Positions 37,128 to 60,992 of a stretch of 64,000 nt of DNA are shown here, in pieces (within the stretch, counting starts at the first letter, position 1; every line of letters begins with the position of its first letter). Position numbers and translations under genes: made by a program. Below the pieces are notes generated by a model. It did no database searches. It was not told where the DNA came from and saw only the letters and a program-made list of their open reading frames with translations. The DNA is from an uncultured Mediterraneibacter sp. (GTDB lineage: Bacteria > Bacillota > Clostridia > Lachnospirales > Lachnospiraceae): the NCBI GenBank assembly GCA_944381495.1, contig CALWLJ010000011.1, positions 1 to 64,000 on the forward strand. Direction: 5' to 3'.

Positions 37128-37365
37128 TCCTGATTGGGGACGTAGCAAAATGCAGTTTTGCTACGTCCCCAATCAGGATTCAGTGTGTCCCAAATTGAAA
37201 ATCAGTGTGTCCCCTCTTGAAAAGTTCACAATTTTATGGGATTTTTTATGTTAAATTGGAGTACTAAATTGTGCAGTATTACTATAGGGGACAGGGCAAA
37301 ATGCAAAAAGGGACAGGGCAAAGTTCAATTGGGGACGTAGTGAAATTCGATTTTACTACGTCCCC
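37128..37365. repeat. composite palindromic repeat element, copy 1
   Basis: 238 bp made of a left palindrome (perfect 23-bp arms 37128-37150 / 37156-37178, core GGGGACGTAGCAAAA), two GTGTCCC units, GAAAAGTTCACAATTTT, a unique core, then in opposite sense GGGGACAGGGC and GGGACAGGGC, and a right palindrome 37331-37365 (16-bp arms, one mismatch). The right palindrome touches the RBS of the next gene. The order is the same as at 60742-60992. Confidence 0.88.
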
Positions 37366-37378
37366 GAAGGAGGAGAAG

Positions 37379-39115
37379 ATGAAGATTATTCTTGCTGCGG
37401 TAAACGCTAAATATATCCATTCTAATCTGGCGGTGTACAGTCTGCGGGCCTACGCCCGGCGCTACAGCCGCGACATTATGATAAAGGAATACACCATCAA
37501 TCAGCAGCCGGATTCGATCCTGATGGATCTTTATACAGAGGCGCCTGACGTGATATGTTTTTCCTGTTATCTGTGGAACATACTGTATGTGGAGCAGATC
37601 ATGACAGAGCTGCCGAAGATCCTGCCAAAGGCGAGGATCTGGCTGGGCGGACCGGAGGTTTCCTATGATGCTCCGGAGATGTTGCGCCGTTATCCTATGG
37701 TTGAGGGGATCATGTGCGGGGAAGGGGAAGAGACTTTTCTGGAACTGGCCGAATATTTTCATGAGGAGGCGGGAAAAAGCCTGAAAAATATCCGGGGGAT
37801 CGCATACCGGGATGACGAAGGAAGTATACAGGTAAATGAATCCCGTCCGGTACTGGACCTGAGCACGGTTCCTTTTATATATGGCAGGGAGTACAACGAT
37901 ATGGAAACATTCCGCAACCGGATCATCTATTATGAGTCCAGCAGAGGATGTCCCTTCTCCTGCAGCTACTGTCTCTCATCCATAGACAAATGCCTGCGGT
38001 TCCGTGATATAGATCTTGTCAGGGAAGAACTGCAGTTTTTTCTCGATCACAGGGTTCCGCAGGTGAAATTTGTGGACCGGACGTTTAACTGCCGGCACGA
38101 CCATGCTATGGCGGTGTGGTCCTATCTTGCCGAACATGACAATGGGATAACGAATTTCCATTTTGAAGTATCGGCGGATCTGCTCAATGATGCTGAGATC
38201 ACTTTGATCCAGACTATGCGTCCAGGTCTGATCCAGCTGGAGATTGGCGTACAGTCTGCCAATGACCGGACAATACGCGAAATACGACGGACCATGAATC
38301 TGGATGAGGTGAGGCGGAAGACGGCTCTGATCCGGGAAGCGGGGAATGTACACCAGCACCTTGATCTGATCGCCGGACTTCCATGGGAGGATTATGAAAG
38401 CTTTGCCAGATCATTTGATGTAGTATATGCCATGAAGCCGGATCAGCTTCAGCTGGGCTTCCTGAAGGTCCTGAAAGGTTCGATGATGTACGAAAAGGCA
38501 GAGGAGTACGGGCTTCAGTATCAGAGCCGTCCTCCCTATGAAGTGCTGTCTACAAAATGGCTGCCTTACAGGGATGTGATCCGTCTGAAGAAAGTGGAAG
38601 AGATGGTTGAGGTGTATTATAACAGCGGCCAGTTTCGCCATACCCTGGAACATCTGGAGACAGCAGAGAAGAAAAACGGAGCGGGGCGCTGCTTCCCCAC
38701 TGCATTTTCCTTGTTTGAGGCTCTTGCCGTCTTCTATGACAGCAGAGGGTTAAATGGAATCAGTCATTCAAGGATCGCCAGGTATGAGATCCTCTATGAG
38801 TTTATACAGGAGTCAGATGTCTGTGGAGGAGACGGCTGGCGGGAGTGGCTGGCTCTGGACATATATCTCCGTGAAAATGTAAAGAACCGCCCGGAATTCC
38901 TGGGGGAAAGTAAAGTATTGAAAGAGGAAGCGGCGGAATTTTACAGAAGGGAAGAAGAGGAACGCCGTTTCCTGAAGGAGTATGAGGGATATGACTACAG
39001 GCAGATGAGAAAGATGACTCATCTGGAGCGGATTGAAGATAAGTTGCTGCTCTTTGATTATAGAAACAGAAATCCGCTGAACGGGGATGCGATGGTGTAC
39101 GAAGTGCAACGATAA
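37379..39115 (+). CDS. B12-binding-domain radical SAM protein (DUF4080-like)
   Basis: A 578-residue enzyme. The N-terminal cobalamin-binding-type domain (MKIILAAVNAKYIHSNLAVY; LGGPEVSYD) is followed by the radical SAM core with CPFSCSYC (Cys191, Cys195, Cys198) and a C-terminal helical region typical of the DUF4080 group. Substrate unknown; relatives include methyltransferases. ATG 37379 follows AAGGAGGAG. The frame is open another 36 codons upstream, but that part is repeat DNA (VKFDFTTSP) and should not be counted. Confidence 0.85.
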   Translation: MKIILAAVNAKYIHSNLAVYSLRAYARRYSRDIMIKEYTINQQPDSILMDLYTEAPDVICFSCYLWNILYVEQIMTELPKILPKARIWLGGPEVSYDAPEMLRRYPMVEGIMCGEGEETFLELAEYFHEEAGKSLKNIRGIAYRDDEGSIQVNESRPVLDLSTVPFIYGREYNDMETFRNRIIYYESSRGCPFSCSYCLSSIDKCLRFRDIDLVREELQFFLDHRVPQVKFVDRTFNCRHDHAMAVWSYLAEHDNGITNFHFEVSADLLNDAEITLIQTMRPGLIQLEIGVQSANDRTIREIRRTMNLDEVRRKTALIREAGNVHQHLDLIAGLPWEDYESFARSFDVVYAMKPDQLQLGFLKVLKGSMMYEKAEEYGLQYQSRPPYEVLSTKWLPYRDVIRLKKVEEMVEVYYNSGQFRHTLEHLETAEKKNGAGRCFPTAFSLFEALAVFYDSRGLNGISHSRIARYEILYEFIQESDVCGGDGWREWLALDIYLRENVKNRPEFLGESKVLKEEAAEFYRREEEERRFLKEYEGYDYRQMRKMTHLERIEDKLLLFDYRNRNPLNGDAMVYEVQR

Positions 39116-39210
39116 AAATCTTCCTCGTCTTGCAAAAACCATATAAAGAGTATAAAATGTAAACAATTGCACTCTGAGAAGATCAGAGGCGTATGGAAAG
39201 GAGAAGCCGG

Positions 39211-39312
39211 ATGAATTTTTATGATAAACGGTTCAGACGGATCATATCTATTATTATTATCGTTCTGATTGTTGCCATGGTGGCAACGATGGTGATCCCT
39301 TATCTGGCATAA
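39211..39312 (+). CDS. 33-residue single-helix membrane protein
   Basis: Reads MNFYDKRFRR, then a hydrophobic helix (IISIIIIVLIVAMVATMVI) and PYLA. It is preceded by AAAGGAGAAG at a good distance and shows the positive-inside pattern expected for a real membrane peptide. Similar tiny one-helix proteins are common in Firmicutes. It lies 95 bp after the radical SAM gene. Function unknown. Confidence 0.6.
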   Translation: MNFYDKRFRRIISIIIIVLIVAMVATMVIPYLA

Positions 39313-39469
39313 GGGGAATACAGGAAAGAATCACTGGCAGAGCTGATTCGCGGAGAAACAGACTGCGGGAGGGGAACGGATCTGAACAGCGGTCTGCATG
39401 AAACGATAAAAAAGAGAAACGATCAGCTGCAGACAGGACAATAAACGGAAAGGCAGGACGGCAGAAATC

Positions 39470-40582
39470 ATGAGAGAGGGCAAGATATCCCGGACAGTCT
39501 GGAACCGGTATATCAGGAAACAACTGCATAGAGAGAGAGAAGAAGTACTTGGAACGCCTTCCTGGACAGAGGACTGTTCAGCCATCAGTGGGGAAAGGGC
39601 TGACACATTTATGTGGACAGAGGCGTCGGCCTCCGGAACCGGAGGGCAGATCGGATATTATGCTGCTATGAAGGCGGCAGGGGATCTGGCTGCCCATGGC
39701 GCCAGGCCTGCAGGCGTCTCGGTGAATTTCCTTCTGCCTCCGGATATCCCGGAGGAACTGACAGGAGAACTGACAGCAGGTGTAGAAGAGGCCTGCGCAA
39801 ATGCGGATATGCAGATATCCAGGGTGACGGGAGAGGTCAGCAGGGCTGTCGCCTGTCCCATTGTCTCTGTCACGGCAGCAGGGTTTATGGAAACGAAAGC
39901 TGCATCCGCTGTCAGTCCTGGGGTCCGAAACGACGCTTTGGCAGTAAAAGGCAGCGCCGCTGCAGCACAGAGTGTCTGCCATTCAGCGCAGATGCGGGAA
40001 AACCGTATTCGGCCCGGGCAGGAGATCCTGCTTTGCGGTTATGCAGGACTGGAGGGAACACTGCGAGTCCTGGATGAGGCGAGAAAAGAGCTGAGCGAGA
40101 GATTTGTCCCGGCTTTTCTGAGAAAAGCAGCAGATTTAAAACAGGATATAGTCCCACCTGGAATTCTGCTGGAAGCGTGCGCAGAGGCGGGATGGAATCA
40201 TATTTCTGCCATCTGGCAGATCGGCAGCGGCGGAATCTTCGGAGCGTTGTGGGAGATGGCAGAAGCAGCCGATGTTGGTCTGGATCTGGATCTACGTGCC
40301 ATATCTCTGAAACAGGAGACAGTGGAGATCTGTGAGTTTTTCCGGATCAATCCTTATCTGCTCACCTCAGCAGGAAGTTTCCTGATCGCAACAGATCATG
40401 CGGGACGAGTGATTGAAGTACTGGAGAAGGCGGGGGCGCGAGCCGGAAGGCTTGGGGTTGCCACAGCGCAGAAGGCGCGGGTGATCACAAGCGGAGAAGA
40501 GATAAGATATATGGACAGGCCTGCAGCCGATGAGTTGCTGAGATGGCAGGATGAACGGATAACAGGCGGGCGGGAAAACTGA
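39470..40582 (+). CDS. AIR synthase-related (HypE/PurM-like) protein
   Basis: A 370-residue protein of the PurM/HypE superfamily. The N-terminal ATP-binding domain has the Asp/Glu-rich TEDCSAISG and GDLAAHGARPAGVSVNFLLP. The C-terminal domain begins around LLCGYAGLEGTLRVL and includes IGSGGIFGALWEM. True HypE ends in a Cys used for cyanation; this protein ends in GGREN, so it is not HypE. No hydrogenase genes are near. Role unknown; an ATP-dependent step is likely. The RBS is weak, so the start is uncertain. Confidence 0.75.
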   Translation: MREGKISRTVWNRYIRKQLHREREEVLGTPSWTEDCSAISGERADTFMWTEASASGTGGQIGYYAAMKAAGDLAAHGARPAGVSVNFLLPPDIPEELTGELTAGVEEACANADMQISRVTGEVSRAVACPIVSVTAAGFMETKAASAVSPGVRNDALAVKGSAAAAQSVCHSAQMRENRIRPGQEILLCGYAGLEGTLRVLDEARKELSERFVPAFLRKAADLKQDIVPPGILLEACAEAGWNHISAIWQIGSGGIFGALWEMAEAADVGLDLDLRAISLKQETVEICEFFRINPYLLTSAGSFLIATDHAGRVIEVLEKAGARAGRLGVATAQKARVITSGEEIRYMDRPAADELLRWQDERITGGREN

Positions 40583-40696
40583 ATATTCAGACAGACTTTT
40601 CTCAGAAGGCGGCTTTTGTCTGCTCTCCGGGAAAAGAGAAAATAGATAAGGAAACGTCAGATATATGAAATATATGACATGGCAGGAGGTAATCTT

Positions 40697-41200
40697 ATGA
40701 ATGAAAAGAAAGAGCAGCTGAGAATTGAGATATTAAAGTATATCGAGAAAAACAGCCGTGTAAACCTGGGAGAACTGGCTGTCCTTCTCGGTGTGGAAGA
40801 GACGGACGTCGCAAACGAGATGGCGGAGATGGAAAAGGAGAAGATCATCTGTGGATATCACACACTGATCGACTGGGACAAAGCAGGCGTAGAGATGGTG
40901 ACTGCTCTGATCGAGGTGCGCGTGACACCTCAGAGGGACAGAGGGTTTGACCGGATTGCAGAGAGAATATACAACTATCCGGAAGTGTATGCGGTTTATC
41001 TGATTTCGGGAAGCTATGATCTGCTGGTCACTCTGGAAGGAAAAACATTGAAGGAAGTATCGAGATTCGTGTCGGAAAAACTGTCGCCCATCGACGAGGT
41101 GCTGAGCACTGCTACTCATTTCATCCTGAAAAAATATAAAGATCACGGAACGATCATGGGGGCAAAAAAAGAGTCGGAAAGGATGCTGGTGACACCATGA
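40697..41200 (+). CDS. Lrp/AsnC-family regulator
   Basis: A 167-residue protein with an N-terminal winged-helix DNA-binding region (RIEILKYIEKNSRVNLGELAVLLGV) and a C-terminal RAM/effector domain (YAVYLISGSYDLLVTLEG). Such proteins bind amino acids and control amino-acid metabolism. ATG 40697 lies 6 nt after AGGAGGT. Its stop overlaps the start of an aminotransferase gene (ATGA), so it probably regulates or is coexpressed with that enzyme. Confidence 0.9.
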   Translation: MNEKKEQLRIEILKYIEKNSRVNLGELAVLLGVEETDVANEMAEMEKEKIICGYHTLIDWDKAGVEMVTALIEVRVTPQRDRGFDRIAERIYNYPEVYAVYLISGSYDLLVTLEGKTLKEVSRFVSEKLSPIDEVLSTATHFILKKYKDHGTIMGAKKESERMLVTP

Positions 41201-42369
41201 CAAGAAATCCATTATCAAAAAAGATTATTGATATACAGCCGTCAGGAATCCGAAAATTCTTCGATGTAGCAAATGAGATGAAGGATGCCATTTCACTGGG
41301 TGTAGGTGAGCCGGATTTTGATACTCCATGGCGTATCCGTGAAGAAGGAATATTTTCCCTTGAAAAAGGAAGAACATTTTATACATCGAATGCAGGACTC
41401 CAGGAACTGCGGAATGAGATATGCAAATATCTCGAAAGAAAGATTCACGTTTCTTACGATCCCAAAAAAGAAACCCTTGTTACGGTGGGAGGCAGTGAGG
41501 CTATTGACGTTGGACTGAGATGTATGCTGGATCCGGGAGATGAGGTCCTGATTCCCCAGCCCTGTTATGTATCCTATCTGCCATGTACCGTAATGGCGGA
41601 CGGGGTTCCGGTGACTGTACCTCTTCAGCATGAAAATGAATTTAAGCTGACGGTAGAGGATCTGGAGAAATATACAACGCCGAAAACGAAAGTACTGATC
41701 ATGCCTTTCCCCAACAATCCGACAGGATCTGTAATGACGAAGGAAGATCTGGAGCCGGTTGCAGAGTTTGTGAAGGAACACGACCTGTTTGTACTATCAG
41801 ATGAGATTTATTCAGAGCTTACGTATGGAAGCGAACATGTTTCTATTGCTTCTCTTCCGGGAATGAGAGAGAGGACCATAGTGATCAACGGATTTTCCAA
41901 AGGATTCGCCATGACTGGATGGCGTCTTGGTTTCTGCTGCGGACCGGAGGTCATCATCGAGCAGATGGTCAAGCTGCATCAGTTTGCGATCATGTGTGCG
42001 CCAACTATAAGCCAGTATGCGGCGGTGGAAGGCCTGAGAAACTGCGATGACGAAGTGCAGGAAATGAGAAAATCCTACGATCAGAGAAGGCGTTTCCTTA
42101 TGAATGAGTTCAAACGGATGGGCCTGGAATGTTTTGAGCCTCACGGTGCATTTTATGTGTTCCCGAGTATCCGGGAATTCGGGATGACTTCGGAAGAGTT
42201 TGCGACCCGTCTGCTTAATGAGGAGAAGGTTGCGGTAGTACCCGGAACTGCATTTGGTGACTGCGGAGAGGGATTTCTCCGGATTTCATACGCATATTCC
42301 CTGGAAGATCTGAAAGAGGCTCTGGGCAGAGTGGAGAACTTCATCCGCCGGCTCAGGGGGGAGGAGTAA
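41197..42369 (+). CDS. PLP-dependent class I/II aminotransferase
   Basis: A 390-residue fold-type I aminotransferase. PLP-binding Lys235 is in NGFSKGFAMTGWRLGF, the cofactor Asp/Tyr motif is SDEIYSELTYG, and PFPNNPTG is the usual substrate-site loop. Probably an aromatic or aspartate-type enzyme; the sequence alone does not fix the substrate. Coupled to the Lrp-type regulator upstream and 2 bp from trmL downstream. Confidence 0.92.
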   Translation: MTRNPLSKKIIDIQPSGIRKFFDVANEMKDAISLGVGEPDFDTPWRIREEGIFSLEKGRTFYTSNAGLQELRNEICKYLERKIHVSYDPKKETLVTVGGSEAIDVGLRCMLDPGDEVLIPQPCYVSYLPCTVMADGVPVTVPLQHENEFKLTVEDLEKYTTPKTKVLIMPFPNNPTGSVMTKEDLEPVAEFVKEHDLFVLSDEIYSELTYGSEHVSIASLPGMRERTIVINGFSKGFAMTGWRLGFCCGPEVIIEQMVKLHQFAIMCAPTISQYAAVEGLRNCDDEVQEMRKSYDQRRRFLMNEFKRMGLECFEPHGAFYVFPSIREFGMTSEEFATRLLNEEKVAVVPGTAFGDCGEGFLRISYAYSLEDLKEALGRVENFIRRLRGEE

Positions 42370-42371
42370 GG

Positions 42372-42869
42372 ATGCTCAATATTGTATTGCTGGAGCCGGA
42401 GATCCCGGCAAATACAGGGAATATCGGACGTACCTGCGTGGCTTCAGGAACGCGGCTCCACCTGATTGAGCCGCTGGGATTCAGCCTCAGTGAGAAAGCG
42501 CTGAAGCGGGCAGGGATGGATTACTGGAAAGATCTGGATGTGACAACGTATATCGACTATCAAGATTTTTTGGAACAGAATCCGGGAGCAAAAATCTACA
42601 TGGCTACAACAAAAGCACGGAAAGTGTACACAGAAGTAGCATATGAGCCGGACTGTTATATCATGTTCGGAAAGGAAAGTGCCGGAATCCCAGAGGAGAT
42701 ACTTGTGGAAAATCAGGAAAACTGTGTCAGGATCCCCATGATGGGAGATATCCGTTCTCTGAACCTGGGAAATTCCGTGGCTGTAGTTCTGTATGAAGCG
42801 CTGCGGCAAAACGGATTTCCGGGGATGAACCTGGAGGGACAGCTGCATAGACTGCAGTGGAAAGAATAA
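42372..42869 (+). CDS. trmL: tRNA (cytidine(34)-2'-O)-methyltransferase TrmL
   Basis: A 165-residue SPOUT enzyme that methylates the wobble ribose of tRNA-Leu. N-terminal LLEPEIPANTGNIGRTC and C-terminal knot motifs FGKESAGIPEEI and IRSLNLGNSVAVVLYEALRQ are diagnostic. Last gene of the Lrp-aminotransferase unit. Confidence 0.94.
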   Translation: MLNIVLLEPEIPANTGNIGRTCVASGTRLHLIEPLGFSLSEKALKRAGMDYWKDLDVTTYIDYQDFLEQNPGAKIYMATTKARKVYTEVAYEPDCYIMFGKESAGIPEEILVENQENCVRIPMMGDIRSLNLGNSVAVVLYEALRQNGFPGMNLEGQLHRLQWKE

Positions 42870-42886
42870 ATGAATCAATATAACAG

Positions 42887-42927
42887 AAAGCGTACAGAGG
42901 AAAATGGATCCTCTGTGCGCTTTTTTT
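42887..42927 (+). terminator. terminator after trmL
   Basis: AAAGCGTACAGAGGA (42887-42901) pairs with TCCTCTGTGCGCTTT, followed by T-rich sequence. Confidence 0.88.
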
Positions 42928-43064
42928 ACGTGAGATAACAGCTGTTAACGCTGTAATGGATTTGGATTTTTGACATTTTTGATAATTGATTAGGGCTCTG
43001 AAAAGATATTTTAAGATATATTAGATATACTAATAATTTCTTCAAAGTTATAATCATAAATGAT

Positions 43065-43094
43065 TTGAATGAATTTACCAATTTGGTATATAAT
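43065..43094 (+). promoter_or_regulatory. promoter of the V-type ATPase operon
   Basis: TTGAAT (43065-43070), 18 bp, TATAAT (43089-43094), about 110 bp before the first gene. The upstream 42930-43064 stretch is very AT-rich and holds no gene. Confidence 0.7.
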
Positions 43095-43206
43095 AGCAAC
43101 AAACTATTTATATAATATGCACAAAATACGAAAAGTGCATGAAGCTGACCATATTGGAAAAGCTATGAAGGCAGAAAATGTTCGATGAAAGGCGGTGTGT
43201 GAAAAT

Positions 43207-43515
43207 ATGGTTGAAGAGACGATCCAGACGATCCGTGAGACGGAACGGGAGGCGGATGAAAGGATTCGGCTGGCCGGGGAGCAGGGAAGACAGATGATCG
43301 ACGAAGCCCGGAGCCGGGGACAGCAGATCCGTGAGGAAGCTATGGAAGCTGCCCGCAGCCGGACAGAACAGATACGAAAGGCCGCAGAGGACAAGGCGGC
43401 AGAGATGAGAGACAGAGCGGCCGGAGAACTGTCGGAGGAGACTGACAGATTGAAGGCCGAGGCGAGGAAACGGGAAGATGAGGCCGTAGATCTGGTTATT
43501 TCTCGTCTTATATAA
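43207..43515 (+). CDS. ntpF: V-type ATPase stalk subunit G/H
   Basis: A 102-residue, almost wholly helical and charged protein (EREADERIRLAGEQGRQMIDEARSRG...) of the peripheral-stalk subunit family that pairs with subunit E. Called ntpF in Enterococcus, where it also comes first in the operon. ATG 43207 is preferred; GTG 43195 sits on the RBS. Confidence 0.8.
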   Translation: MVEETIQTIRETEREADERIRLAGEQGRQMIDEARSRGQQIREEAMEAARSRTEQIRKAAEDKAAEMRDRAAGELSEETDRLKAEARKREDEAVDLVISRLI

Positions 43516-43575
43516 GTATCGTATAACGAATATAAGCAGGATATAAAAGTATTTCAGAAAAGGAGGGGATAGATC

Positions 43576-46070
<2,495 letters not shown>

Positions 46071-51160: not shown

Positions 51161-51284
51161 CGCAGCGGGACTGTCCCAGAAGCCCTGAAAAGGGCAGAAA
51201 ATCGACTGTCCCCGAAGCGCAAGCGTAGTGGGACTGTCCCGGAAGCCCTGGAAGGGCGGGAAATAGACTGTCCCCGAAGCGTAG
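51139..51284. repeat. 62-bp tandem repeat between ntpB and ntpD
   Basis: GACTGTCCCCGAAGCG recurs at 51142, 51204 and 51266, an exact 62-bp step (two units plus a partial). Each full unit also holds GGGACTGTCCC and AGCCCTGAAAAGGGC-type hairpins. It covers the ntpB stop codon and ends about 10 bp before the RBS of ntpD. Confidence 0.88.
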
Positions 51285-52085: not shown

Positions 52086-52377
52086 TGGTCTATTTAAGAC
52101 GGAAGTTAGTGGCTAAACAGCCGACCTCATACCTGCACATGTTCACACTTTTGGGACATCTGCTGCGGAAATGGAGGGAAAAACAGTCGTTTTGAACAAA
52201 CGCTCATGGAAAATGGGAAAACAGGTAAGATTTTTGTAAAAAGTTTGTATTTTTTGCATAAAAAACTTCAAATTTCGAAGGAAATGAGTTACAATTTGTA
52301 CATAAGTCATTGTGGCTTTGCGGCATTTTATAAAATGTCGGATTAACGCAAAATAAGTTTAGAATAGGGGAAGAATT
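52086..52377 (+). promoter_or_regulatory. glgCD promoter and leader
   Basis: AT-rich stretch with TTCAAA (52267-52272), 17 bp, TACAAT (52290-52295) as the best promoter. A 20-bp dyad CGGCATTTTATAAAATGTCG (52321-52340) lies in the leader and could be an operator or a weak hairpin. No gene is seen. Confidence 0.45.
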
Positions 52378-53586
52378 ATGGCAAAAGAAATGATTGCAAT
52401 GCTTCTTGCCGGAGGACAGGGCTCACGTCTGTATGCCCTGACACAGAATCTGGCAAAACCTGCAGTTCCTTTCGGCGGCAAATATCGTATCATCGATTTC
52501 CCGCTGTCGAACTGCGTAAATTCCGGTATTGACACAGTAGGAATCCTGACTCAGTATCAGCCTCTTGTGCTGAACGAATACATAGGAAACGGACAGCCCT
52601 GGGATCTGGACCGTCTCCATGGCGGAGTTCATGTGCTCCCGCCGTATCAGAGAGCTTCTGGATCAGACTGGTATAAGGGAACCGCGAATGCGATCTATCA
52701 GAATATCTCATTTATAGAGCGTTATGATCCCGAATATGTAATCATTCTTTCCGGAGATCAGATCTGCAAACAGGACTACAGTGATTTCCTGAAGTTCCAC
52801 AAGGAGAAAGGTGCAGAGTTCAGCGTAGCTGTCATGGAAGTGCCGTGGGAAGAGGCGTCCCGTTTCGGACTTATGGTAACAGATGAGAATGACAAGATCA
52901 CAGAATTCCAGGAGAAGCCGAAGAATCCCAAGTCCAACCTGGCATCTATGGGAATCTACATTTTTAATTGGGATATTCTGAAGAAATATCTGGAAGAGGA
53001 CGAGGCAGATCCTGAATCCGAAAATGACTTTGGAAACAATATTATTCCTAATCTCCTCCGGGATGAGAGAAAAATGTATGCTTACAGGTTTAGCGGTTAC
53101 TGGAAGGACGTAGGAACGATTTCTTCTCTCTGGGAAGCAAATATGGAAGTGCTGGATCCGGAACATAGCGGAATTGATCTGTTTGATGAGGAGTGGAAGA
53201 TTTACAGCAGGAACAGTGGTAAGACAGGGCATAAGATCGGTCCCGATGCAGTGGTGGAAAACTCTATGATCACAGATGGATGCCGGATCAACGGAAATGT
53301 CAAGCATTCGATTTTGTTCTCGGGTGTGAAAGTTGAAGCGGGTGCAGAGGTAGAAGATGCAGTGGTAATGGGCGGCACGACTATCAAGGCAGGCGCTGTT
53401 GTGAAACATTGTATTGTAGCTGAGAACGTAACTATCGGAGAAAATGCAGTTGTAGGCGCAATGCCGGATGGCGAGAACAGCGGAGTGGCAACAGTCGGCA
53501 GCGGTGTATATGTAGGCGATGGAGCCAAGGTCGGACCAAACGCAATGGTCAGCAATAATGTAAAGGACGGTGAAGAACAATGGTAA
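52378..53586 (+). CDS. glgC: glucose-1-phosphate adenylyltransferase, catalytic subunit
   Basis: A 402-residue ADP-glucose pyrophosphorylase, the committed step of glycogen synthesis. N-terminal nucleotide-binding [31 protein letters not shown]-type region is intact, as is the [11 protein letters not shown] substrate motif, with a left-handed beta-helix at the end. Overlaps glgD by 7 bp. Confidence 0.96.
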
Positions 53587-54722
53587 ATTCGAATATTGAT
53601 GCATTGGGAATCATTTTCCCGAACAGTTATGACGATCTGGTGCCGGAACTGGTGGCTGACCGGCTGATGGCGTCCATTCCATTTGCGGGACGTTACAGAA
53701 TGATTGATTTTATACTTTCCAGCATGGTGAACTGTGGAATTGATAATGTTTCTGTGATCGTACGAAAGAATTATCATTCTCTCCTGGATCATCTTGGAGC
53801 AGGAAGAGAATGGGATCTGACACGCAAGAACGGCGGCCTTAATATCGTTCCTCCTTTTGCAGAGAAGACGGTCAAGGTGTATAACGGCCGTGTTGAGGCG
53901 CTGGCAAGCATCCTTGGTTTTCTTAAGAGCCAGAAAGAAAAATATGTCATCATGGCGGATGCCAATGTTGCGGCTAGCTTTGATTTCGGGGCATTCCTGG
54001 AGCAGCATATCGAAAGCGGTGCGGATGTGACAGTGGCATATACCGAGGAAGAGCTTCCGGAAAGCTTTAAGAATACGGAGATTAACAGTAAGTCTTTGTA
54101 CTATACTCTGGATCTGGACGGACAGAGAGTGACGAATATTAAGATCAACTCGAAAGCATCGGGTGTACAGAACTTCTCCATGAACATTTATGCGATTGAA
54201 AGGGAGACTCTGATCGACCAGATCAGCCAGGCGTTTGTGCGGGGATATGTATACTATGAGAGAGATATTCTGTCACCCCACCTGGTGACACTGAATGTAC
54301 AGGGATTTAAGTTTGAAGGATACAGTGCGCGGATTTCGGATATGAAGAGCTATTTCGATGAGAACATGAAGCTGCTGGATGAGAATAATCTGGATGCTCT
54401 TTTTGACAAGGGGCAGATTTATACAAAGATCCGTGACGACAATCCGACCAGGTACAAGACAGGCTCACGCGTAAAAAATGTCATGGCGGCAGACGGCTGT
54501 GTGATCGAAGGTGATGTGGAGAACTGTATCCTGTTCAGGGGCGTTAAGATCAAGAGCGGTGCGAAAGTCCGTAACTGTGTGCTCATGCAGGATACAGTAG
54601 TTGAGTCTGGAGCGGATATCGATTATGTGATCACAGACAAAAACGTAGTGATCAGTGAAAATCAGAAACTGCAGGGAACAGACTCTTTCCAGGTATTTGT
54701 AGAAAAAGGAAAAAGAGTATAA
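53580..54722 (+). CDS. glgD: glucose-1-phosphate adenylyltransferase subunit GlgD
   Basis: A 380-residue GlgC-like protein that lacks the GGxGxRL catalytic loop: the equivalent segment reads [14 protein letters not shown]. GlgD is the modulatory partner of GlgC in Firmicutes and makes the GlgCD heterotetramer more active. No glgA, glgB or glgP follows here, so the rest of glycogen synthesis is elsewhere. Confidence 0.94.
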
Positions 54723-54814
54723 AAGCAAAAAAGCACTGCGGATCATCGAACCTCCTGACAGATATGCCGGGAATTAATGTGGTAATCAGAAAATTATAAT
54801 AAGGAAAAGCCGGA

Positions 54815-54862
54815 AGAAGCCGGAGCTGAAGGGAAGATCCCAGGATGCTCCGGCTTCTTTCA
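54815..54862 (+). terminator. terminator of glgCD
   Basis: Perfect 12-bp arms AGAAGCCGGAGC (54815-54826) / GCTCCGGCTTCT (54847-54858), then TTTC. Confidence 0.85.
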
Positions 54863-55064
54863 TTATATGAAGATGTCGAAAAGGAATGAAGGGCTGGGGG
54901 TTGAAGCATATTCCGCTGCGTGTTAGAATAAAGAAACGCAACAGAGAATAATTGTGCAGCCGTTCTGGCGTACGCCCTTATTATATAAATAAAATGTGAA
55001 TGGGACGGTATACGGAAAAAGAGACGGTTGCATTTTCGGCATTATGCAGAAGCAGGAGGAGTTT

Positions 55065-56261
55065 ATGAATCTTGACCGAGAAAACATGAGGAAAATAAGG
55101 CAGCTGATCCTGTTTACGATCATCGTATTGATCGCGCTGTGGAACTATGCGATCATCCTGGGGGCTGTCAGATATGCGCTGGGAATCATATTTCCATTTA
55201 TCCTGGGCGGAGGAATCGCGTTCGTTCTGAATGTTCCCATGTGCTTCCTTGAGGAGTTGATCTTCTACAATAAGAAGTTGAAGGATAAAAAGATAGCGAA
55301 CCGTCTGGCGCGGCCTGTCAGTCTGGTGCTTACCATTGTGATCGTGATCGGAGTCGTAGTACTGGTCATGTTTGTTGTGATTCCTGAACTGACCCGGACG
55401 CTTATGTCTCTTGGAAGGACGATCCAGATATTTATACCGGAGGCTCAGAGATTTCTGGAGGATCTGTTTACAAATAACAGTGACATGAGAGCCTGGCTGA
55501 ATAGTCTGGACCTGAATGTGGATACGATCATGAGAAACGCGATGGAGTTCTTTCAGAATGGTGCGGGAAATGTGCTGAACTCGACTATGTCCGCAATCGG
55601 TTCTATTGTGAGCGGAGTGACTACATTTGTTATTGCTTTTGTTTTTGCCTGCTACATCCTGCTGCAGAAAGAGAAGCTGAGAGTGCAGGTGAAGAAGGTA
55701 CTGGATGCCTTCCTCAAACCGGAGCGTGTGGAATGGGTTACAGAGGTGTGCTCTCTGACGGCAAAGACTTTTTCCAACTTTCTGGCAGGCCAGTGCCTTG
55801 AGGCCCTGATCCTGGGGGGCATGTTCTTTGTGGTGATGACCATTTTCAGTATGCCATATACGCTGCTGATCAGCGTCCTGATCGCCTTTACCGCACTGAT
55901 TCCCATATTCGGCGCCTTCATCGGATGTATCGTGGGAGCATTTCTCATCCTGATGGTAGATCCGCTGCAGGCACTGGGCTTTGTGATCATGTTCCTTGTC
56001 CTTCAGCAGATTGAAGGCAATATGATCTATCCCAAGGTTGTAGGTAAGTCCGTGGGCCTTCCATCCATCTGGGTCCTGGCAGCAGTCACCGTGGGCGGCA
56101 GTCTCATGGGAGTGATAGGAATGCTGGTATTCATTCCTATTGTATCGGTTATCTATGCTCTGTTCCGTGCCAGCGTGTATAAAAGGCTGAAAAAGAAAAA
56201 AATTCTGGCAGAGACTGAGGAGAGTCGGAAGCCGGAGGCTGAGACGGCGACAAAAGACTGA
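55065..56261 (+). CDS. AI-2E/PerM family membrane protein
   Basis: A 398-residue protein with about eight membrane helices and an extracytoplasmic/central helical domain (about 110-190). C-terminal signatures LIPIFGAFIGCIVGAFL, QQIEGNMIYPKVVGKSVGLP and GVIGMLVFIPIVSVIY are those of the PerM/AI-2E transporter superfamily. Members do varied export or antiport jobs; no specific role is assigned. ATG 55065 follows AGGAGGA; the frame is open upstream to 54996 without an RBS. Confidence 0.9.
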   Translation: MNLDRENMRKIRQLILFTIIVLIALWNYAIILGAVRYALGIIFPFILGGGIAFVLNVPMCFLEELIFYNKKLKDKKIANRLARPVSLVLTIVIVIGVVVLVMFVVIPELTRTLMSLGRTIQIFIPEAQRFLEDLFTNNSDMRAWLNSLDLNVDTIMRNAMEFFQNGAGNVLNSTMSAIGSIVSGVTTFVIAFVFACYILLQKEKLRVQVKKVLDAFLKPERVEWVTEVCSLTAKTFSNFLAGQCLEALILGGMFFVVMTIFSMPYTLLISVLIAFTALIPIFGAFIGCIVGAFLILMVDPLQALGFVIMFLVLQQIEGNMIYPKVVGKSVGLPSIWVLAAVTVGGSLMGVIGMLVFIPIVSVIYALFRASVYKRLKKKKILAETEESRKPEAETATKD

Positions 56262-56302
56262 CGAAATTATAGAGAAGTGAAACAGGATATGCAATAAAGG
56301 GC

Positions 56303-56332
56303 TTGACTTCCATCGGGCCGGCATGGTACAAT
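56303..56332 (+). promoter_or_regulatory. promoter of rpmG-secE-nusG-rplK-rplA
   Basis: TTGACT (56303-56308), 18 bp, TACAAT (56327-56332) with a TGG just upstream of the -10. Confidence 0.75.
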
Positions 56333-56434
56333 GTCATGGCGAATGGAAGTAGGCCTTTTTTTTATGCCTAAAAACAGATGGCTTCGCAACCATCAGTAAC
56401 ACGTAGTGAATATGTTAAAAGCGAGGTGGAAGTT

Positions 56435-56584
56435 GTGCGCACAAGAATTACACTGGAGTGTACGGAATGCAAGAACCGTAACTACAACATGACAAAGGAT
56501 AAGAAAGCTCATCCGGAACGCATGGAGACCAAGAAGTACTGCAGATTCTGCAAATCACACACACTGCACAAGGAAACGAAGTAG
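56435..56584 (+). CDS. rpmG: 50S ribosomal protein L33
   Basis: A 49-residue protein starting at GTG 56435 ([18 protein letters not shown]). It has the zinc-ribbon cysteines CTEC and CRFC, so it is the zinc-binding (C+) form. Frame open upstream to 56378 is leader, not protein. Confidence 0.95.
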
Positions 56585-56606
56585 TCGCCGGAAGGAAGTG
56601 GATACC

Positions 56607-56804
56607 ATGGGTGAGAAGACCAAAACTCAGAAAAAGAGCTGGTTCAAAGGACTTCAGGCTGAGTTCAAGAAGATCATTTGGCCAGATAGGAAGACACTTG
56701 CGAAACAGACCACGGCAGTCGTTGCTGTTTCCGTTGTTCTCGGGGTGATCATCGCTGTGGTTGATGTGATTCTGAGATACGGAATTGATTTACTGGTGAA
56801 ATAG
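56607..56804 (+). CDS. secE: preprotein translocase subunit SecE
   Basis: A 65-residue protein with an amphipathic part (WFKGLQAEFKKIIWPDRKTL) and one membrane helix (VVAVSVVLGVIIAVVDVIL). ATG 56607 chosen; GTG 56598 is too near the RBS. Standard position before nusG. Confidence 0.94.
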   Translation: MGEKTKTQKKSWFKGLQAEFKKIIWPDRKTLAKQTTAVVAVSVVLGVIIAVVDVILRYGIDLLVK

Positions 56805-56829
56805 TTGACAGCGGCAGAAAGGTGATTTT

Positions 56830-57348
56830 ATGTCAGAGGCAAAATGGTATGTTGTTCATACTTATTCAGGGTATGAGAACAAAGTAAAGGCTAATATTGA
56901 CAAGGCGATCGAGAACCGTCATCTGGAAGACCAGATCCTTGAAGTACGCGTGCCTCTTGAAGAGGTGGTGGAGCTTAAGAACGGCGTTCAGAGAACGGTT
57001 CAGAGGAAGATGTTTCCGGGCTATGTCATGCTTCACATGATCATGAATGATGACACCTGGTACGTGGTGCGGAACACCCGCGGCGTTACCGGATTTGTCG
57101 GACCGGGATCCAAGCCGGTTCCGCTGGAGGACAGCGAGATGGAGAACATGGGGATCAAACGGGACGACGTGGTTGTTGACTTTGGCGTTGGTGATACAGT
57201 CACTGTGCTCAGCGGAGCCTGGGAAGGCACTGTGGGAGTAATCCAGAGCATGAATGAGCAGAAGAAGAGCCTGTCGATCAATGTTGAACTGTTTGGCCGA
57301 GAGACTCCGGTTGAACTCAGCTTTTCAGAAGTGAAGAAAATGGATTAA
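56830..57348 (+). CDS. nusG: transcription termination/antitermination factor NusG
   Basis: A 172-residue protein with the NGN domain (KWYVVHTYSGYENKVKANI) and a C-terminal KOW domain (FGVGDTVTVLSGAWEGTVGVIQSMNEQKK). Links RNA polymerase pausing with the ribosome. Confidence 0.97.
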   Translation: MSEAKWYVVHTYSGYENKVKANIDKAIENRHLEDQILEVRVPLEEVVELKNGVQRTVQRKMFPGYVMLHMIMNDDTWYVVRNTRGVTGFVGPGSKPVPLEDSEMENMGIKRDDVVVDFGVGDTVTVLSGAWEGTVGVIQSMNEQKKSLSINVELFGRETPVELSFSEVKKMD

Positions 57349-57354
57349 AAAAAC

Positions 57355-57394
57355 GTGGGAGGGAGTAATCCCGCCAATACCACAAGGAGGTTAT
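57355..57394 (+). promoter_or_regulatory. L1-type mRNA motif before rplK
   Basis: GTGG-GA-GGG-AGTAAT-CCC-GCCAATA-CCAC (57355-57383) folds into a stem with a GA / GCCAATA internal loop and leads straight into AAGGAGG. The same structure stands before rplA (57947). It resembles the rRNA site bound by L1, which would let L1 repress its own operon. Confidence 0.65.
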
Positions 57395-57399
57395 TTAAA

Positions 57400-57825
57400 A
57401 TGGCAAAAAAAGTAGAAGGATATATCAAATTACAGATTCCTGCCGGCAAGGCAACTCCGGCACCGCCGGTTGGACCTGCACTTGGACAGCATGGTGTAAA
57501 TATTGTTGAATTTACAAAACAGTTCAATGCAAGAACAGCAGATCAGGGAGATCTGATCATCCCTGTTGTTATTACCGTATATAATGACAGAAGCTTCAGC
57601 TTCATCACAAAGACACCTCCGGCAGCAGTTCTGATCAAGAAAGCATGCAAGATCAAATCTGGATCAGGCGTGCCGAACAAGAACAAAGTTGCTACGATCA
57701 CAAAGGATCAGGTAAAAGAAATCGCTGAGATGAAGATGCCTGACCTGAACGCTGCATCTATCGAGACAGCGATCAGCATGATCGAGGGAACATGCCGTTC
57801 CATGGGTGTTGTAGTAGCAGACTAA
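57400..57825 (+). CDS. rplK: 50S ribosomal protein L11
   Basis: A 141-residue protein with the full L11 sequence pattern ([30 protein letters not shown]). ATG 57400 follows AAGGAGG; the frame upstream to 57355 is the regulatory hairpin. Confidence 0.97.
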
Positions 57826-57946
57826 GACCGGAGCAGAAGTAATTCGGATTTATCAGACAGTGCCGCTTCGTGAGCTGGCCGGGTCCCGGGGAGGGGCGGG
57901 CCGGATGCACGGAACGGACCGGATATGCAGTAAATTCACGAAACAA

Positions 57947-57990
57947 GTGGGAGGGGATATTCCCGCTAATACCACAAGGAGGTTATTTTT
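57947..57990 (+). promoter_or_regulatory. L1-type mRNA motif before rplA
   Basis: GTGG-GA-GGG-GATATT-CCC-GCTAATA-CCAC (57947-57975), followed by AAGGAGG. Helix-flanking and internal-loop bases are the same as at 57355 while the hairpin loop differs, as expected for a conserved protein site. Confidence 0.68.
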
Positions 57991-57993
57991 AAA

Positions 57994-58686
57994 ATGAAAC
58001 GAGGAAAAAAATATATTGAAGCTGCAAAACTGATCCAGAGAGGAAACCTCTACGACAAAGATGAGGCAATCGCCCTGGTAAAGAAAGCAGCAGTGGCTAA
58101 ATTTGACGAGACAATCGAAGCTCATATCAGAACCGGATGTGACGGACGTCACGCTGACCAGCAGATCCGTGGTGCGGTTGTTCTTCCGCACGGAACAGGT
58201 AAGAAAGTCCGCATCCTTGTATTTGCAAAGGACGCTAAGGCTGAGGAAGCTAAGGCAGCAGGCGCTGACTTCGTTGGCGGAGACGAGCTGATCCCGAAGA
58301 TCCAGAACGAGGGATGGCTTGACTTTGACGTTGTAGTTGCTACACCGGATATGATGGGTGTTGTTGGTCGTCTTGGACGTGTACTTGGACCGAAGGGTCT
58401 CATGCCGAACCCGAAGGCTGGTACCGTTACAATGGACGTTACAAAGGCAATCAACGATATCAAAGCCGGTAAGATTGAGTACAGACTGGACAAGACAAAT
58501 ATTATCCACGTGCCGATCGGTAAAGCATCCTTTACTGAGGAGCAGTTAGCGGACAACTTCCAGACGCTTATCGATGCAATCAACAAAGCAAGACCGGCAG
58601 CTGTTAAGGGACAGTATCTGAAGAGTGTAACTCTTACATCAACAATGGGCCCTGGCGTGAAGATCAACCCGATGAAACTTGCGTAA
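57994..58686 (+). CDS. rplA: 50S ribosomal protein L1
   Basis: A 230-residue protein, complete ([31 protein letters not shown]). It is the probable ligand of the two leader motifs. Followed by a strong terminator; rplJ/rplL are not next. Confidence 0.97.
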
Positions 58687-58703
58687 TTAATTGCGATAAA
58701 ATG

Positions 58704-58741
58704 AAAAGCCATGTGCAGGACGGACTGTACATGGCTTTTTC
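58704..58741 (+). terminator. terminator after rplA
   Basis: AAAAGCCATGT (58704-58714) / ACATGGCTTTT (58729-58739) and T run. Confidence 0.88.
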
Positions 58742-58846
58742 TGTTAAGCACAGAGCGTGCGCGTTAAGGCAGAGTAAAGCGGCTGCGGCGCTTATATGAA
58801 CAGCTTCAAGTCAGCGCTTCGCCGACTGTGTGGGCCGCGGCGCCCG

Positions 58847-58877
58847 CAGGCAAATGACACGCGGCGCCATTTGCCTG
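58847..58877. repeat. 10-bp inverted repeat upstream of the MBL gene
   Basis: CAGGCAAATG (58847-58856) / CATTTGCCTG (58868-58877), 11-nt GC-rich loop, in the leader of the MBL-fold gene. Possible regulatory hairpin. Confidence 0.4.
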
Positions 58878-58919
58878 GAGATGAACAGCAAATAGTATGA
58901 ACAGGGGGAGTATATTAAG

Positions 58920-59756
58920 ATGGAACTGACTATCACTACCTTGATCGAAAACGGAGAAGATGAAGAGAAATGCCTGAACAGCGAACATGGACTCGCTCTT
59001 TATCTGGAGTATGACGGGGAAAAGATTCTTTTTGACACCGGGCAGACAGGAAATTTTGTGGATAATGCGGCCGTACTGGGGAAATCTCTGAACGATCTGG
59101 ACTATGTTGTTCTCAGTCACGGACATTATGACCATGGAGGCGGAGTGAAACGTCTGCTCCCTCTGATGAGCAGCGAGACAAAGATCGTTCTGGGAGACGG
59201 ATATTTTCGCTCGAAATATAAAAGAACAGCTCAGGGATATCGTTTCAATGGCGTGTCGTTTTCCGAAGAAGATCTGATCCGGGGAGAAAATCAGATTATA
59301 ACAGTACGAGGAAAAATGGAGCGGATCGGAAAGCGGCTTCTGGTCTTCCGCGATTTTACATATCGTACAAAGTTTGAAAAAGTCAATCCCAACATGTGTA
59401 TAAAGGTGGAAGAGTCATTTGTCCCGGATGAGTTCAGAGATGAGATCGTGCTTGGTGTGGAAATGGAGGCAGGTCTGGTTGTTATAGCGGGATGCTCTCA
59501 TGCGGGGATCGTTAATATCCTGGAGGATATTCGAGAAAGGAGCGGGCAGAGGATATTTGCTGTTATAGGCGGGACGCATCTGGTGGGAGCGGAGGATGAA
59601 CGGATCCGGCTTACCGCGGAGAGACTGAGAAATATGGACATACAGATGCTGGCGGTCTCTCACTGTACAGGAGAAAAGGGTGTTGAGAAGCTGAGAGAAG
59701 TGTTTGGCGACAGGTTTATTGTGAATAATACGGGAAATGTGATCACTGTGAAGTGA
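58920..59756 (+). CDS. MBL-fold metallohydrolase
   Basis: A 278-residue metallo-beta-lactamase-fold protein. HGHYDHGG gives His67, His69, Asp71 and His72; later AGCSHAGIVN and SHCTGEKG complete the site. The pattern is that of the group annotated as dihydropterin-ribofuranosyl-aminobenzene phosphate synthase-like enzymes in bacteria and archaea, where the true reaction is often unknown. Its stop overlaps the open frame of the next gene. Confidence 0.85.
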   Translation: MELTITTLIENGEDEEKCLNSEHGLALYLEYDGEKILFDTGQTGNFVDNAAVLGKSLNDLDYVVLSHGHYDHGGGVKRLLPLMSSETKIVLGDGYFRSKYKRTAQGYRFNGVSFSEEDLIRGENQIITVRGKMERIGKRLLVFRDFTYRTKFEKVNPNMCIKVEESFVPDEFRDEIVLGVEMEAGLVVIAGCSHAGIVNILEDIRERSGQRIFAVIGGTHLVGAEDERIRLTAERLRNMDIQMLAVSHCTGEKGVEKLREVFGDRFIVNNTGNVITVK

Positions 59757-59824
59757 GCGTTATTCTGAAATGCGGGATTTTAAGAAAACGTAGGTTTGGA
59801 AAATTTGTGCGAGGGACTGGTTTG

Positions 59825-60751
59825 ATGAAACATAAGATAATAAATAATTTGCTGCTTTTACTTACTGCATTGATATGGGGATGCGCTTTCGTCGCACAGA
59901 GCGTAGGGATGGAATACATCGGACCTTTTACATTTAACTGTATCAGGAGTATTATGGGCGGCTTGGTGCTTCTCCCAGTTATATGGGTTATGAGACACAG
60001 TAAAAATGAATGCAATTGCAGGACAGAGAAAGACAGGAAAACAGTTTCTTTCCCGGTTGATGAAAAGACCAGGGAGAATCGGAGAGAACTTGTTGTTGGA
60101 GGCATATGCTGCGGTGCAGCTCTGGCCGTGGCAAGCTCTCTTCAACAGATGGGACTTGTTTACACAAGTCCCGGGAAAGCGGGGTTTATCACAGCATTAT
60201 ATATTCTGATCGTTCCCTTTTTGGGGATTTTTCTAGGGAAAAAAGCCGGGATAAAAACATGGGTAGGTGTAGTGCTTGCAGTGATAGGTATGTATTTTCT
60301 CTGCATTACAGATCACTTTTCACTGTCAAGAGGGGATACCCTCGTGCTGCTGTGTGCGGTAGCTTTTGCTGTACATATTTTATTGGTCGATCATTTTTCT
60401 CCTAGAGTCAATGGGGTGTGCCTTTCATGTATTCAGTTTTTTGTATGCGGAGGAATATGTGCAGTGGCTATGATGTTGATAGAGCAGCCGCAGATTGAAA
60501 ACATAGTTGCAGTATGGAAGCCCCTTGCATATGCAGGAATTTTTTCCTGCGGTGTAGCATATACTCTGCAGATTATTGCTCAGAAAAATACAGATCCTAC
60601 CGTGGCTTCCCTGCTGCTGAGTCTGGAATCTGTATTCTCCGTAATCGCCGGATGGCTGATCCTGGGCGAAATGTTGTCGGGACGAGAATTGTTTGGATGC
60701 CTGCTGGTGTTCGCTGCAGTAGTACTGGCGCAACTACCTTCGGGGACGTAG
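59825..60751 (+). CDS. EamA-family (DMT) transporter
   Basis: A 308-residue protein with ten membrane helices in two EamA repeats (LLTALIWGCAFVAQSVGMEYIGPF; AYTLQIIAQKNTDPTVASLLLSLESVFSVIAGWL). Exporter of small metabolites or amino acids; substrate unknown. ATG 59825 follows GAGGG; GTG 59753 would be an overlap start. The last two codons and the stop (GGG ACG TAG) belong to the GGGGACGTAG repeat. Confidence 0.88.
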   Translation: MKHKIINNLLLLLTALIWGCAFVAQSVGMEYIGPFTFNCIRSIMGGLVLLPVIWVMRHSKNECNCRTEKDRKTVSFPVDEKTRENRRELVVGGICCGAALAVASSLQQMGLVYTSPGKAGFITALYILIVPFLGIFLGKKAGIKTWVGVVLAVIGMYFLCITDHFSLSRGDTLVLLCAVAFAVHILLVDHFSPRVNGVCLSCIQFFVCGGICAVAMMLIEQPQIENIVAVWKPLAYAGIFSCGVAYTLQIIAQKNTDPTVASLLLSLESVFSVIAGWLILGEMLSGRELFGCLLVFAAVVLAQLPSGT

Positions 60752-60992
60752 TGAAATCAGGTTTTGCTACGTCCCCATTTGAAAACAGCCCTGTCCCTTT
60801 TTGAGTTTTGCCCTGTCCCCTTTCGAAAAGTGCACAATTTTCCAGAAAATATTTGACGGATAAGATGCTGGATTTGTGCATGTTTCCGATAGGGGACAGG
60901 GCAAATTTTAAAAAGGGACAGGGTTATCTGCAAAAAGGGACAGGGCTATTTTCGATTTGGGACGTACTGAAATTCAATTTTACTACGTCCCC
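60742..60992. repeat. composite palindromic repeat element, copy 2
   Basis: 251 bp with the same order as 37128-37365: palindrome (60742-60776), two CCTGTCCC units, GAAAAGTGCACAATTTT, a unique core, three opposite GGGACAGGG units, and a second imperfect palindrome (60958-60992). It fills the whole gap between two convergent genes, and the stop codon of each lies in its outer GGGGACGTAG. Confidence 0.9.

Follow-up and report, generated by a model that had tools for sequence, protein, structure and literature searches.

REP/BIME-like palindrome arrays in Mediterraneibacter and their probable link to a RAYT-like transposase gene at a fixed address

The window analyzed here, a 64,000-nucleotide stretch of contig CALWLJ010000011.1 from an uncultured Mediterraneibacter sp. 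(assembly GCA_944381495.1), contains two full composite elements and one single-palindrome element (Table 1). They are built from a module that consists of a 35-bp palindrome, P (GGGGACGTAG..CTACGTCCCC), and tandem 22-bp units whose GGGAC heads are directed toward P. In both full elements a pair of inverted modules flanks a core of 72–73 bp. In the left-hand inward units the word is ACAC for copy 1 and AGGG for copy 2. The stop codons of EamA and murF (both TAG) fall within the palindromes of copy 2. A preliminary description had placed the two full elements correctly. The half element that it set at 17546–17665 is present between the convergent maf and YgjP-like genes, but it is really one P, flanked by a pair of units to one side and a single unit opposite. 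The block reported as GAAAAG(T/G)TCACAATTTT reads GAAAAGT(T/G)CACAATTTT and is not conserved, and the promoter-like TTGACGG, found at 60853 in copy 2, is missing from the full element that the closest relative, G029, has at the orthologous site. Both were discarded as family features, being absent from the G029 ortholog and, by eye, not visible in most of 18 close pairs of palindromes.

Table 1. Positions of the elements, their parts and the neighboring genes in the window
Feature	Position	Strand	Remarks
Single-palindrome element	17556..17654	.	ACAG units 17556, 17578; P 17599-17633; opposite AGGG head 17650-17654
Large bacterial SRP RNA (RF01854)	36783..37044	-	neighbor of copy 1
Copy 1, full element, two inverted modules around core	37128..37365	.	
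Copy 1, left P	37136..37170	.	perfect pairing reaches 37128-37178
Copy 1, two ACAC units pointing to left P	37187..37213	-	GTCCC heads 37187-37191, 37209-37213
Copy 1, 73-bp core	37214..37286	.	contains GAAAAGTTCACAATTTT and TTGTGCA
Copy 1, two AGGG units pointing to right P	37288..37330	+	heads at 37288, 37310
Copy 1, right P	37331..37365	.	adjoins GAAGGAGG of next gene
B12-binding/radical SAM/DUF4080 protein gene	37379..39115	+	neighbor of copy 1
EamA gene	59753-60751	+	neighbor of copy 2
Copy 2, full element	60742..60992	.	between convergent EamA and murF genes
Copy 2, left P	60742..60776	.
Copy 2, two AGGG units	60793..60819	-	GTCCC heads 60793-60797, 60815-60819
Copy 2, 72-bp core	60820..60891	.	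contains TGCACAATTTT and TTTGTGCA
Copy 2, three AGGG units	60893..60957	+	heads at 60893, 60915, 60937
Copy 2, right palindrome	60958..60992	.	left arm imperfect (TGGGACGTACTG)
murF	60983-62359	-	neighbor of copy 2

A search of the 3.19-Mb genome for the palindrome, as the preliminary description had proposed, gave 25+25 matches to GGGGACGTAG against 8+6 for the reversed control, and the 33-bp palindrome pattern matched 29+29 times against 0+0, which corresponds to 29 P in this genome. The spaced pattern GGGAC-N17-GGGAC occurred 35+27 times (control, 11+6). Alone, the word GGGACAGGG was no more frequent than its reversed version (32+35 each); it is the palindrome and the register that carry the signal, not that word. 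Measured from 189 distinct P sites, other exact GGGAC heads lie at 22 bp in 162 cases and at 23 bp in 4; further out there are 79 at 44, 5 at 45, 16 at 66 and 5 at 88 bp, and the remaining distances have counts of 1–2. Distances between palindromes in the 18 distinct close pairs are 151, 165, 172 (three, one of which, at L110, is a chance second match), 194 (four), 195 (four), 216 (two), 217, 223 and 325 bp. Apart from 165, 223 and 325, these mostly follow 22-bp steps. A GCACAA..TTGTGC pair recurs in only some cores of these pairs. With a few mismatches allowed, all 193 of the 193 palindromes examined pair GTAG with an internal CTAC, a count to which the search pattern contributes by itself requiring near-matches. 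In the P hairpin, the loop and flank pairs exceed the column-shuffle level.

P was found in 43 of 58 genomes of the same genus and also in some other Lachnospiraceae genera, and in none of 41 sampled genomes from other genera. The sites are intergenic in 128 of 140 placed cases, and only 5 of the 128 lie between divergent genes, as for known REPs. A copy between argJ and argB, whose arms hardly vary, is present in 22 of the 30 genomes examined. More generally, orthologous intergenic copies keep the arms and the 22-bp spacing but drift in their spacers and cores. The orthologous full element shared with G029 is 91–94% identical per segment in P and the units, and its core matches at 27/72 positions (ungapped). 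The elements are thus largely inherited vertically at fixed sites. At site 37128 the window has a full element and G029 a solo palindrome, and the difference between these two states can come down to precisely one P together with the interior. No target-site duplication was seen, and no polymorphic insertion was seen within a species.

The preliminary description had suggested looking for a Y1/RAYT transposase flanked by the same palindrome, and relatives of the window's genome contain one. It is a 255-residue HUH/Y1 REP-associated transposase (RAYT) at the fixed address glyS / RAYT / M18 aminopeptidase. The ends of the locus are arranged as P, mid unit and AGGG unit on one side of the gene and as AGGG unit, mid unit and P on the other. 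P stands on both sides in 29 of 32 loci of one type, picked from 30 relatives; of the other three, L281 and L303 reach contig ends and the second P of L301 is degenerate. A second RAYT type is bracketed by P in 0 of 8 loci. In 28 of 35 RAYT intervals the unit next to the gene is AGGG at either end, and the order of the tiers is common to the species and largely to other genera. On L281 and L280 the neighbors proved to be glycine--tRNA ligase and M18 aminopeptidase; by eye, the end of glyS is seen in 28/28 printed loci and the start of the aminopeptidase in 26/26 with a right flank. The 32 picked loci give one copy of the gene per genome, or two at most, in the same context. Solo-P scars occupy the address in G036, G050 and G038.

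The RAYT protein matches Y1_Tnp. Against the REP-associated tyrosine transposase model NF047646, the type protein (L287) scores 74.7 bits, below the cut-off of 80, and the L220 protein scores 84.4; the match to TnpArep (PDB 4er8) has an E value of 0.003. Residues H60–H62 and YIHMNP, the HUH and Y---NP signature, are invariant in alignment A1. With a median omega of 0.13 (288 pairs, 27 genes), the gene is under purifying selection.

Neither RAYT, glyS nor the aminopeptidase gene was found in the window's own assembly, a MAG. Because the two neighbors are missing as well, its RAYT probably lies in an assembly gap. The Y1 genes that this genome does contain, two IS200-like loci of which one is in two pieces, were considered as movers and rejected, as neither is flanked by P. 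Genomes with RAYT contain 7–28 P and those without contain 0–13 (32 versus 21 genomes, p 6e-10); the argB element is present in 19/19 genomes with RAYT and 1/9 without (p 3e-6). As the genomes are related, both p values overstate independence. One genome without RAYT, G054, still has 13 P and the argB element.

We consider it likely, with a probability of about 0.8, that these REP/BIME-like elements are non-autonomous and belong to a domesticated HUH/Y1 transposase, the TIRYT-like RAYT. The RAYT-like gene probably made the copies and maintains them. RAYT would bind the single-stranded hairpin form of P, for which GTAG may be the guide and C|TAC the cut site, and the units, two helical turns apart, may be docking sites. 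New intergenic sites would be seeded through rare copying, a solo P could be left after excision or by recombination between palindromes, and copies would decay once RAYT is gone. Of the earlier proposal of a REP/BIME-like element perhaps moved by RAYT, the REP/BIME-like character and the link to the gene stand, the latter through its bracketing by P; movement, and any action on the palindrome foot, stays putative, with copies largely inherited at fixed sites, no target-site duplication seen and no P-flanked Y1 gene in the window's own assembly. Several observations count against our preferred explanation: target duplications and within-species polymorphic insertions were not seen, the type protein scores below the NF047646 cut-off, conservation at single sites lasts longer than a purely selfish element needs, and copies occur where RAYT is absent, in the window's assembly and in G054.

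A more tentative reading, which we regard as rather unlikely, is that RAYT and some 20 phased arrays of hairpins, each at a conserved address, form a standing chromosomal system that serves the host and is lost as a set with RAYT. If true, the copies would be sites kept in working order (arms and 22-bp phase) while RAYT is present, not drifting relics, and the host might use them, for example, for programmed single-strand processing or as gene-boundary sites. Less probable again is that the elements are host regulatory RNA hairpins of their operons (3'- or 5'-end stabilizers or terminators), one of which merely encloses RAYT. Conservation at argJ/argB spans 22 species, P lies a median of 21 bp from stop codons with 31 of 87 neighboring starts at most 25 bp away, the RNA fold of copy 1 is strong (z -10.2) and a promoter-like site ends at 37127, just before copy 1. 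All this would suit such hairpins, but unit orientation is unbiased relative to transcription (21 versus 30, p 0.26) and terminator-like matches number 1 against 0.9 expected, on which grounds ordinary terminators were rejected. Moreover, P numbers track RAYT, and the same ends bracket that gene at its address across species.

The order of the words could also record history, with AGGG, then ACAC/ACAG, then GTAG as past element ends and newer palindromes added outside as the specificity of the transposase changed. In 98 of 175 arrays the unit most distant from P is indeed AGGG, as against 27 of 109 positions that are not terminal (p 5e-7). However, the tier order shared around RAYT looks like a working layout, and no element was noticed, short of a genome-wide search, to end in a palindrome of AGGG or ACAC; we hold this the most improbable of the alternatives. 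A role in carrying genes was rejected. In the window's genome, pairs of P-unit modules surround an S8 protease gene (C1) and GNAT-argJ (C10), as they do RAYT in relatives, but the S8 gene also adjoins ylxM in L150 (65% identity) and L148 (45%), the order argC-argJ-argB is usual for this operon, and the words follow a different order on either side of argJ. The CACA motifs were also considered as putative DnaA boxes.

The extracts of the REP/RAYT literature used here deal mostly with Proteobacteria. The present system touches on the question of why bacteria retain a single-copy transposase for so long. The RAYT at its fixed address, the ends that bracket it, orthologous copies, losses and solo-P scars are all found across dozens of related gut species, including cultured ones, so that selfish, RAYT-serviced and host-useful roles can be tested by comparison and deletion. 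The exact 22-bp register points toward a measurable protein-DNA geometry.

Open-licence papers on RAYT, REPIN, TIRYT and Lachnospiraceae palindromes, in the parts used, contain no description of this family. With IS200/IS605 insertion sequences the system shares the HUH/Y1 transposase family, but its RAYT is fixed at one address, without multiple mobile gene copies bearing these ends. Like REP/BIME/REPIN sequences and RAYT (TnpAREP) of Proteobacteria (PMC2817692, PMC3116915, PMC8266576, PMC8049555), the copies are intergenic, palindromic, inversely paired and marked by GTAG, with one vertically inherited RAYT, more copies where it is present and few between divergent genes. In contrast to proteobacterial REPs, GTAG here pairs with CTAC within the palindrome instead of forming an unpaired 5' tag; units are repeated in the same direction at 22 bp; and the window's genome has about 29 palindromes where Proteobacteria have hundreds, the REP copy number usually being >100 (PMC2817692).

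The system, for which we infer transposition, is REP/BIME-like, RAYT-linked and nearest to the TIRYT/TIRtron branch. TIRYTs were described by Di Nocera 2013 (PMC3733652); they belong mostly to subclass 2.1 of Quentin 2018 and, as given there (PMC6006769), equal RAYT group 1 of Bertels 2017. Shared features are a single Y1/HUH transposase of ~255 residues with a C-terminal extension, flanking terminal inverted repeats (TIRs) and, for some TIRs, moderately abundant dispersed copies. The TIR motif GGGGWSAS fits the innermost units on both sides of the window's full elements (GGGGACAG, GGGGACAC) as well as the lone AGGG unit at 17654; many units beside RAYT have only GGG before ACAG. A C-terminal helix-turn-helix (Bac_DnaA_C, HTH_23 or HTH_28 like), a TIRYT feature, gave no Pfam match in RAYT here at E 0.01. 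For subclass 2.1 genes, the parts of Quentin et al. used here state that REP-like sequences were not found nearby (PMC6006769), whereas here the REP-like P lies beside RAYT on both sides. Unlike those of TIRYTs, the inverted repeats are ordered 22-bp arrays that end in a true palindrome with GTAG. The kind of system is already known, and its ordered, 22-base-stepped form looks new.

The window covers bases 1-64000 of contig 11; the genome to which it belongs is 3.19 Mb in 39 contigs and 91% complete. The palindrome, P, is 35 bp long and has the form GGGGACGTAG-N15-CTACGTCCCC. It is accompanied by 22-bp units, each made up of GGGAC, a four-base word and an AT-rich spacer, with the heads pointing at P. 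At least one unit is present at 157 of 189 distinct P sites, on one side only at 139 and on both sides at 18. At these 189 sites, exact heads lie 22 bp (162), 23 bp (4), 44 bp (79), 45 bp (5), 66 bp (16) and 88 bp (5) from P, and every other distance occurs once or twice. The loop and flank bases of P, fixed by no search pattern, pair more than column shuffles do (for example, innermost pair tested, 0.65 versus 0.43; six bases outside, 0.58 versus 0.38). At ten bases outside P, no pairing excess over column shuffles was found.

P elements in the window
Element	Coordinates	Arrangement
Full element, copy 1	37128-37365	pair of inverted modules with a 73-bp core between them
Full element, copy 2	60742-60992	pair of inverted modules with a 72-bp core between them
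Single-P element, previously described as a half element	17556-17654	units flank P on both sides

Other repeats also occur in the window. Positions 11838-11969 contain five tandem units of 23 bp that end in TCACGGAAT; G029, the closest relative, has a diverged counterpart. This is possibly another repeat family, with a period nearly identical to that of the 22-bp units. Two 30-bp copies of AAGGGC(A/G)G(A/G)AAAT(C/A)GACTGTCCCCGAAGCG, 62 bp apart at 51190-51281, have GTCCC heads without P. Between murF and the next gene (62451-62593) there is a local mosaic of the repeated blocks GTGCGCGCGTTCACGCTAAGCTCG and CTCGAAAATACCTCGC.

A PF01797 search of 58 genomes of the genus yielded short IS200-like proteins and REP-associated transposase (RAYT)-like proteins of ~250-300 residues, and 40 of the longer proteins were picked by length and score. 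P lies on both sides of the gene in 29 of 32 picked loci of one type; of the other three, L281 and L303 end at contig ends, and L301 has a degenerate second P. The locus runs P, mid unit(s), AGGG unit, Shine-Dalgarno sequence, RAYT, stop codon, AGGG unit, mid unit, P. Of 35 distinct RAYT intervals (three from other genera; one head mismatch allowed), 28 have AGGG as the word of the innermost unit on each side, and the mid units carry ACAG, ATAG, ACCC and other words. The neighbors are glyS on the left (28 of 28 printed loci by eye) and an M18 aminopeptidase gene on the right (26 of 26), with four loci outside the set read; family models confirm both on L281 and L280. The RAYT is 255 residues long in nearly all loci, and matches Y1_Tnp, PDB entry 4er8 and NF047646 (L220 above the cut-off, L287 below); its median omega is 0.13. 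The sequences show the architecture of the elements, the bracketing of the RAYT and its address, the association of P with the RAYT, the conservation of copies, and the full and solo states; binding, cutting and copying by the RAYT, and the role of the units, are inferred.

Three further genera of the family (L442, L443 and L444) have RAYT relatives of 49-51% identity enclosed by related ends. The L442 gene lies downstream of a glyS end, and the L443 gene lies upstream of an aminopeptidase start, with GGTAC units in place of GGGAC. Many RAYT relatives that are more distant still (L448-L467), from families elsewhere in the order, stand between other GGGAC-type inverted repeats, such as GGGGACGGTTCTTTT..GAACCGTCCCC and CCCTAGGGACGGAGGTT, which may mean that ends of this kind form a family spanning the order. 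P was found beside none of the eight picked loci of the second RAYT type. This type (MPRxxRxxSGTDVYHVVSRGNN; L311-L316 and L318, from other genomes of the genus, no P adjoining) carries inverted sequences like AAAAGGGGTCTGACCCCTTTTGTCG or AAAGTACACGGCACC, and a downstream gene start is common to the loci printed.

In the window's own assembly, no RAYT of the P-bracketed type was found, nothing better than an E 1e-5 match for glyS, and nothing better than a 32% match for the aminopeptidase. Since both address genes are missing too, the address probably falls in an assembly gap.

With up to two mismatches, P is present in 43 of 99 genomes, all within the 58 of the genus; because only 3 of the 41 other-genus genomes are from the same family, restriction to the genus is not claimed. 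Among the matches listed, named records with P are mostly Mediterraneibacter MAGs, and other genus names include Hespellia, Faecalimonas, Lachnoclostridium, Ruminococcus, Dorea and Tyzzerella. P numbers 7-28 in 32 genomes with the RAYT (in one of them the gene is cut short by a contig end) versus 0-13 in 21 without it (p 6e-10, although kinship of the species makes p-values overstate independence). In those 21, the assembly covers at least part of the region upstream of the aminopeptidase gene, not always from glyS, and in G009 only ~0.1 kb of it. The outlier is G054, with 13 P and no RAYT. Five genomes whose RAYT locus is missing were excluded (G000, 29 P; G005, 11; G017, 0; G019, 17; G021, 13), and only the score places the RAYT-like genes of P-free G041 and G048 in the second type. 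In three genomes, G036, G050 and G038, the RAYT address contains a single palindrome, decayed to varying degrees (by eye).

The elements are for the most part passed on vertically. Between argJ and argB, an element is present in 22 of the best-matching 30 of the 58 genomes, in most flush with the argB Shine-Dalgarno sequence. It is present in 19/19 RAYT genomes, 1/9 RAYT-less genomes (G054) and 2/2 of undetermined RAYT state. Seven of the eight genomes lacking it have short or ordinary junctions; the eighth, G036, reads CCCGAAGGAGG, which looks like a scar. Over the 22 rows, chosen by a pattern allowing six substitutions that conditions the counts, invariant columns number 17/18 in the P arms and 5/5 in the mid head, compared with 0/45 in the adjoining flank and 10/200 argB third positions. 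The unit words and spacers vary, and the inner AGGG head has an entropy of 0.24 with one divergent row (L323).

The window and G029 are collinear. At 60742 (P in 3/30 genomes), both hold a full element, with 91-94% identity by segment for P and units and 27/72 in the core. At 37128 (P in 4/30), the window has a full element and G029 a solo P with the window's flanks, CTGATTG on the left and CGAAGGAGG on the right, so that the states differ by one P plus interior. At 17556, the G029 element breaks off after the first unit, and beyond it lies ~1.1 kb of sequence containing an open frame of 329 residues (L470, G029:C67 about 11545-12693). The exchange point lies left of the P loop in G029 and right of it at the RAYT address of G036; both points are compatible with cutting at C|TAC in one strand or the other, and also with plain recombination between palindromes.

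By simple ORF calling, setting aside 12 sites that fall in ORFs and 12 at the edge of a locus, 128 element sites comprise 77 co-directional, 46 convergent and 5 divergent positions, whereas the gaps of these loci number 543, 115 and 112, respectively (p 1e-13). The elements lie a median of 21 bp from a stop codon, and 31/87 neighboring starts are within 25 bp. Unit orientation relative to transcription is without bias (21 versus 30). Copy 1 follows directly 3' of a promoter-like site ending at 37127 (9/12 matches; 5 such sites in the region versus 0.9 expected) and is therefore probably in a 5' UTR. Its RNA fold is strong (z -10.2), as that of any double palindrome must be. The palindromes of copy 2 (60742-60751, 60983-60992) supply the TAG stops of both convergent neighbors, EamA and murF.

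Published work describes RAYTs as single-copy and vertically inherited, with more REPINs in E. coli genomes that have a RAYT (PMC8049555), and REPs as lying mainly between co-directional and convergent genes (Di Nocera 2013, PMC3733652). The P system works like REP/RAYT and differs in the unpaired GTAG tag of the REP; cutting by TnpAREP is GTAG-dependent and occurs at C|T (PMC8266576). The nearest branch is the TIRYTs, which, with TIRtrons, were defined as having GGGGWSAS repeats, of which some are dispersed and self-complementary (Di Nocera 2013, PMC3733652). Most TIRYTs are of subclass 2.1, where Quentin 2018 (PMC6006769) found no REP-like sequences; the P system differs from them in having a REP-like palindrome. 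As it departs from each of the two by a single stated property, the P/RAYT system is a new variant in form of a kind already known.
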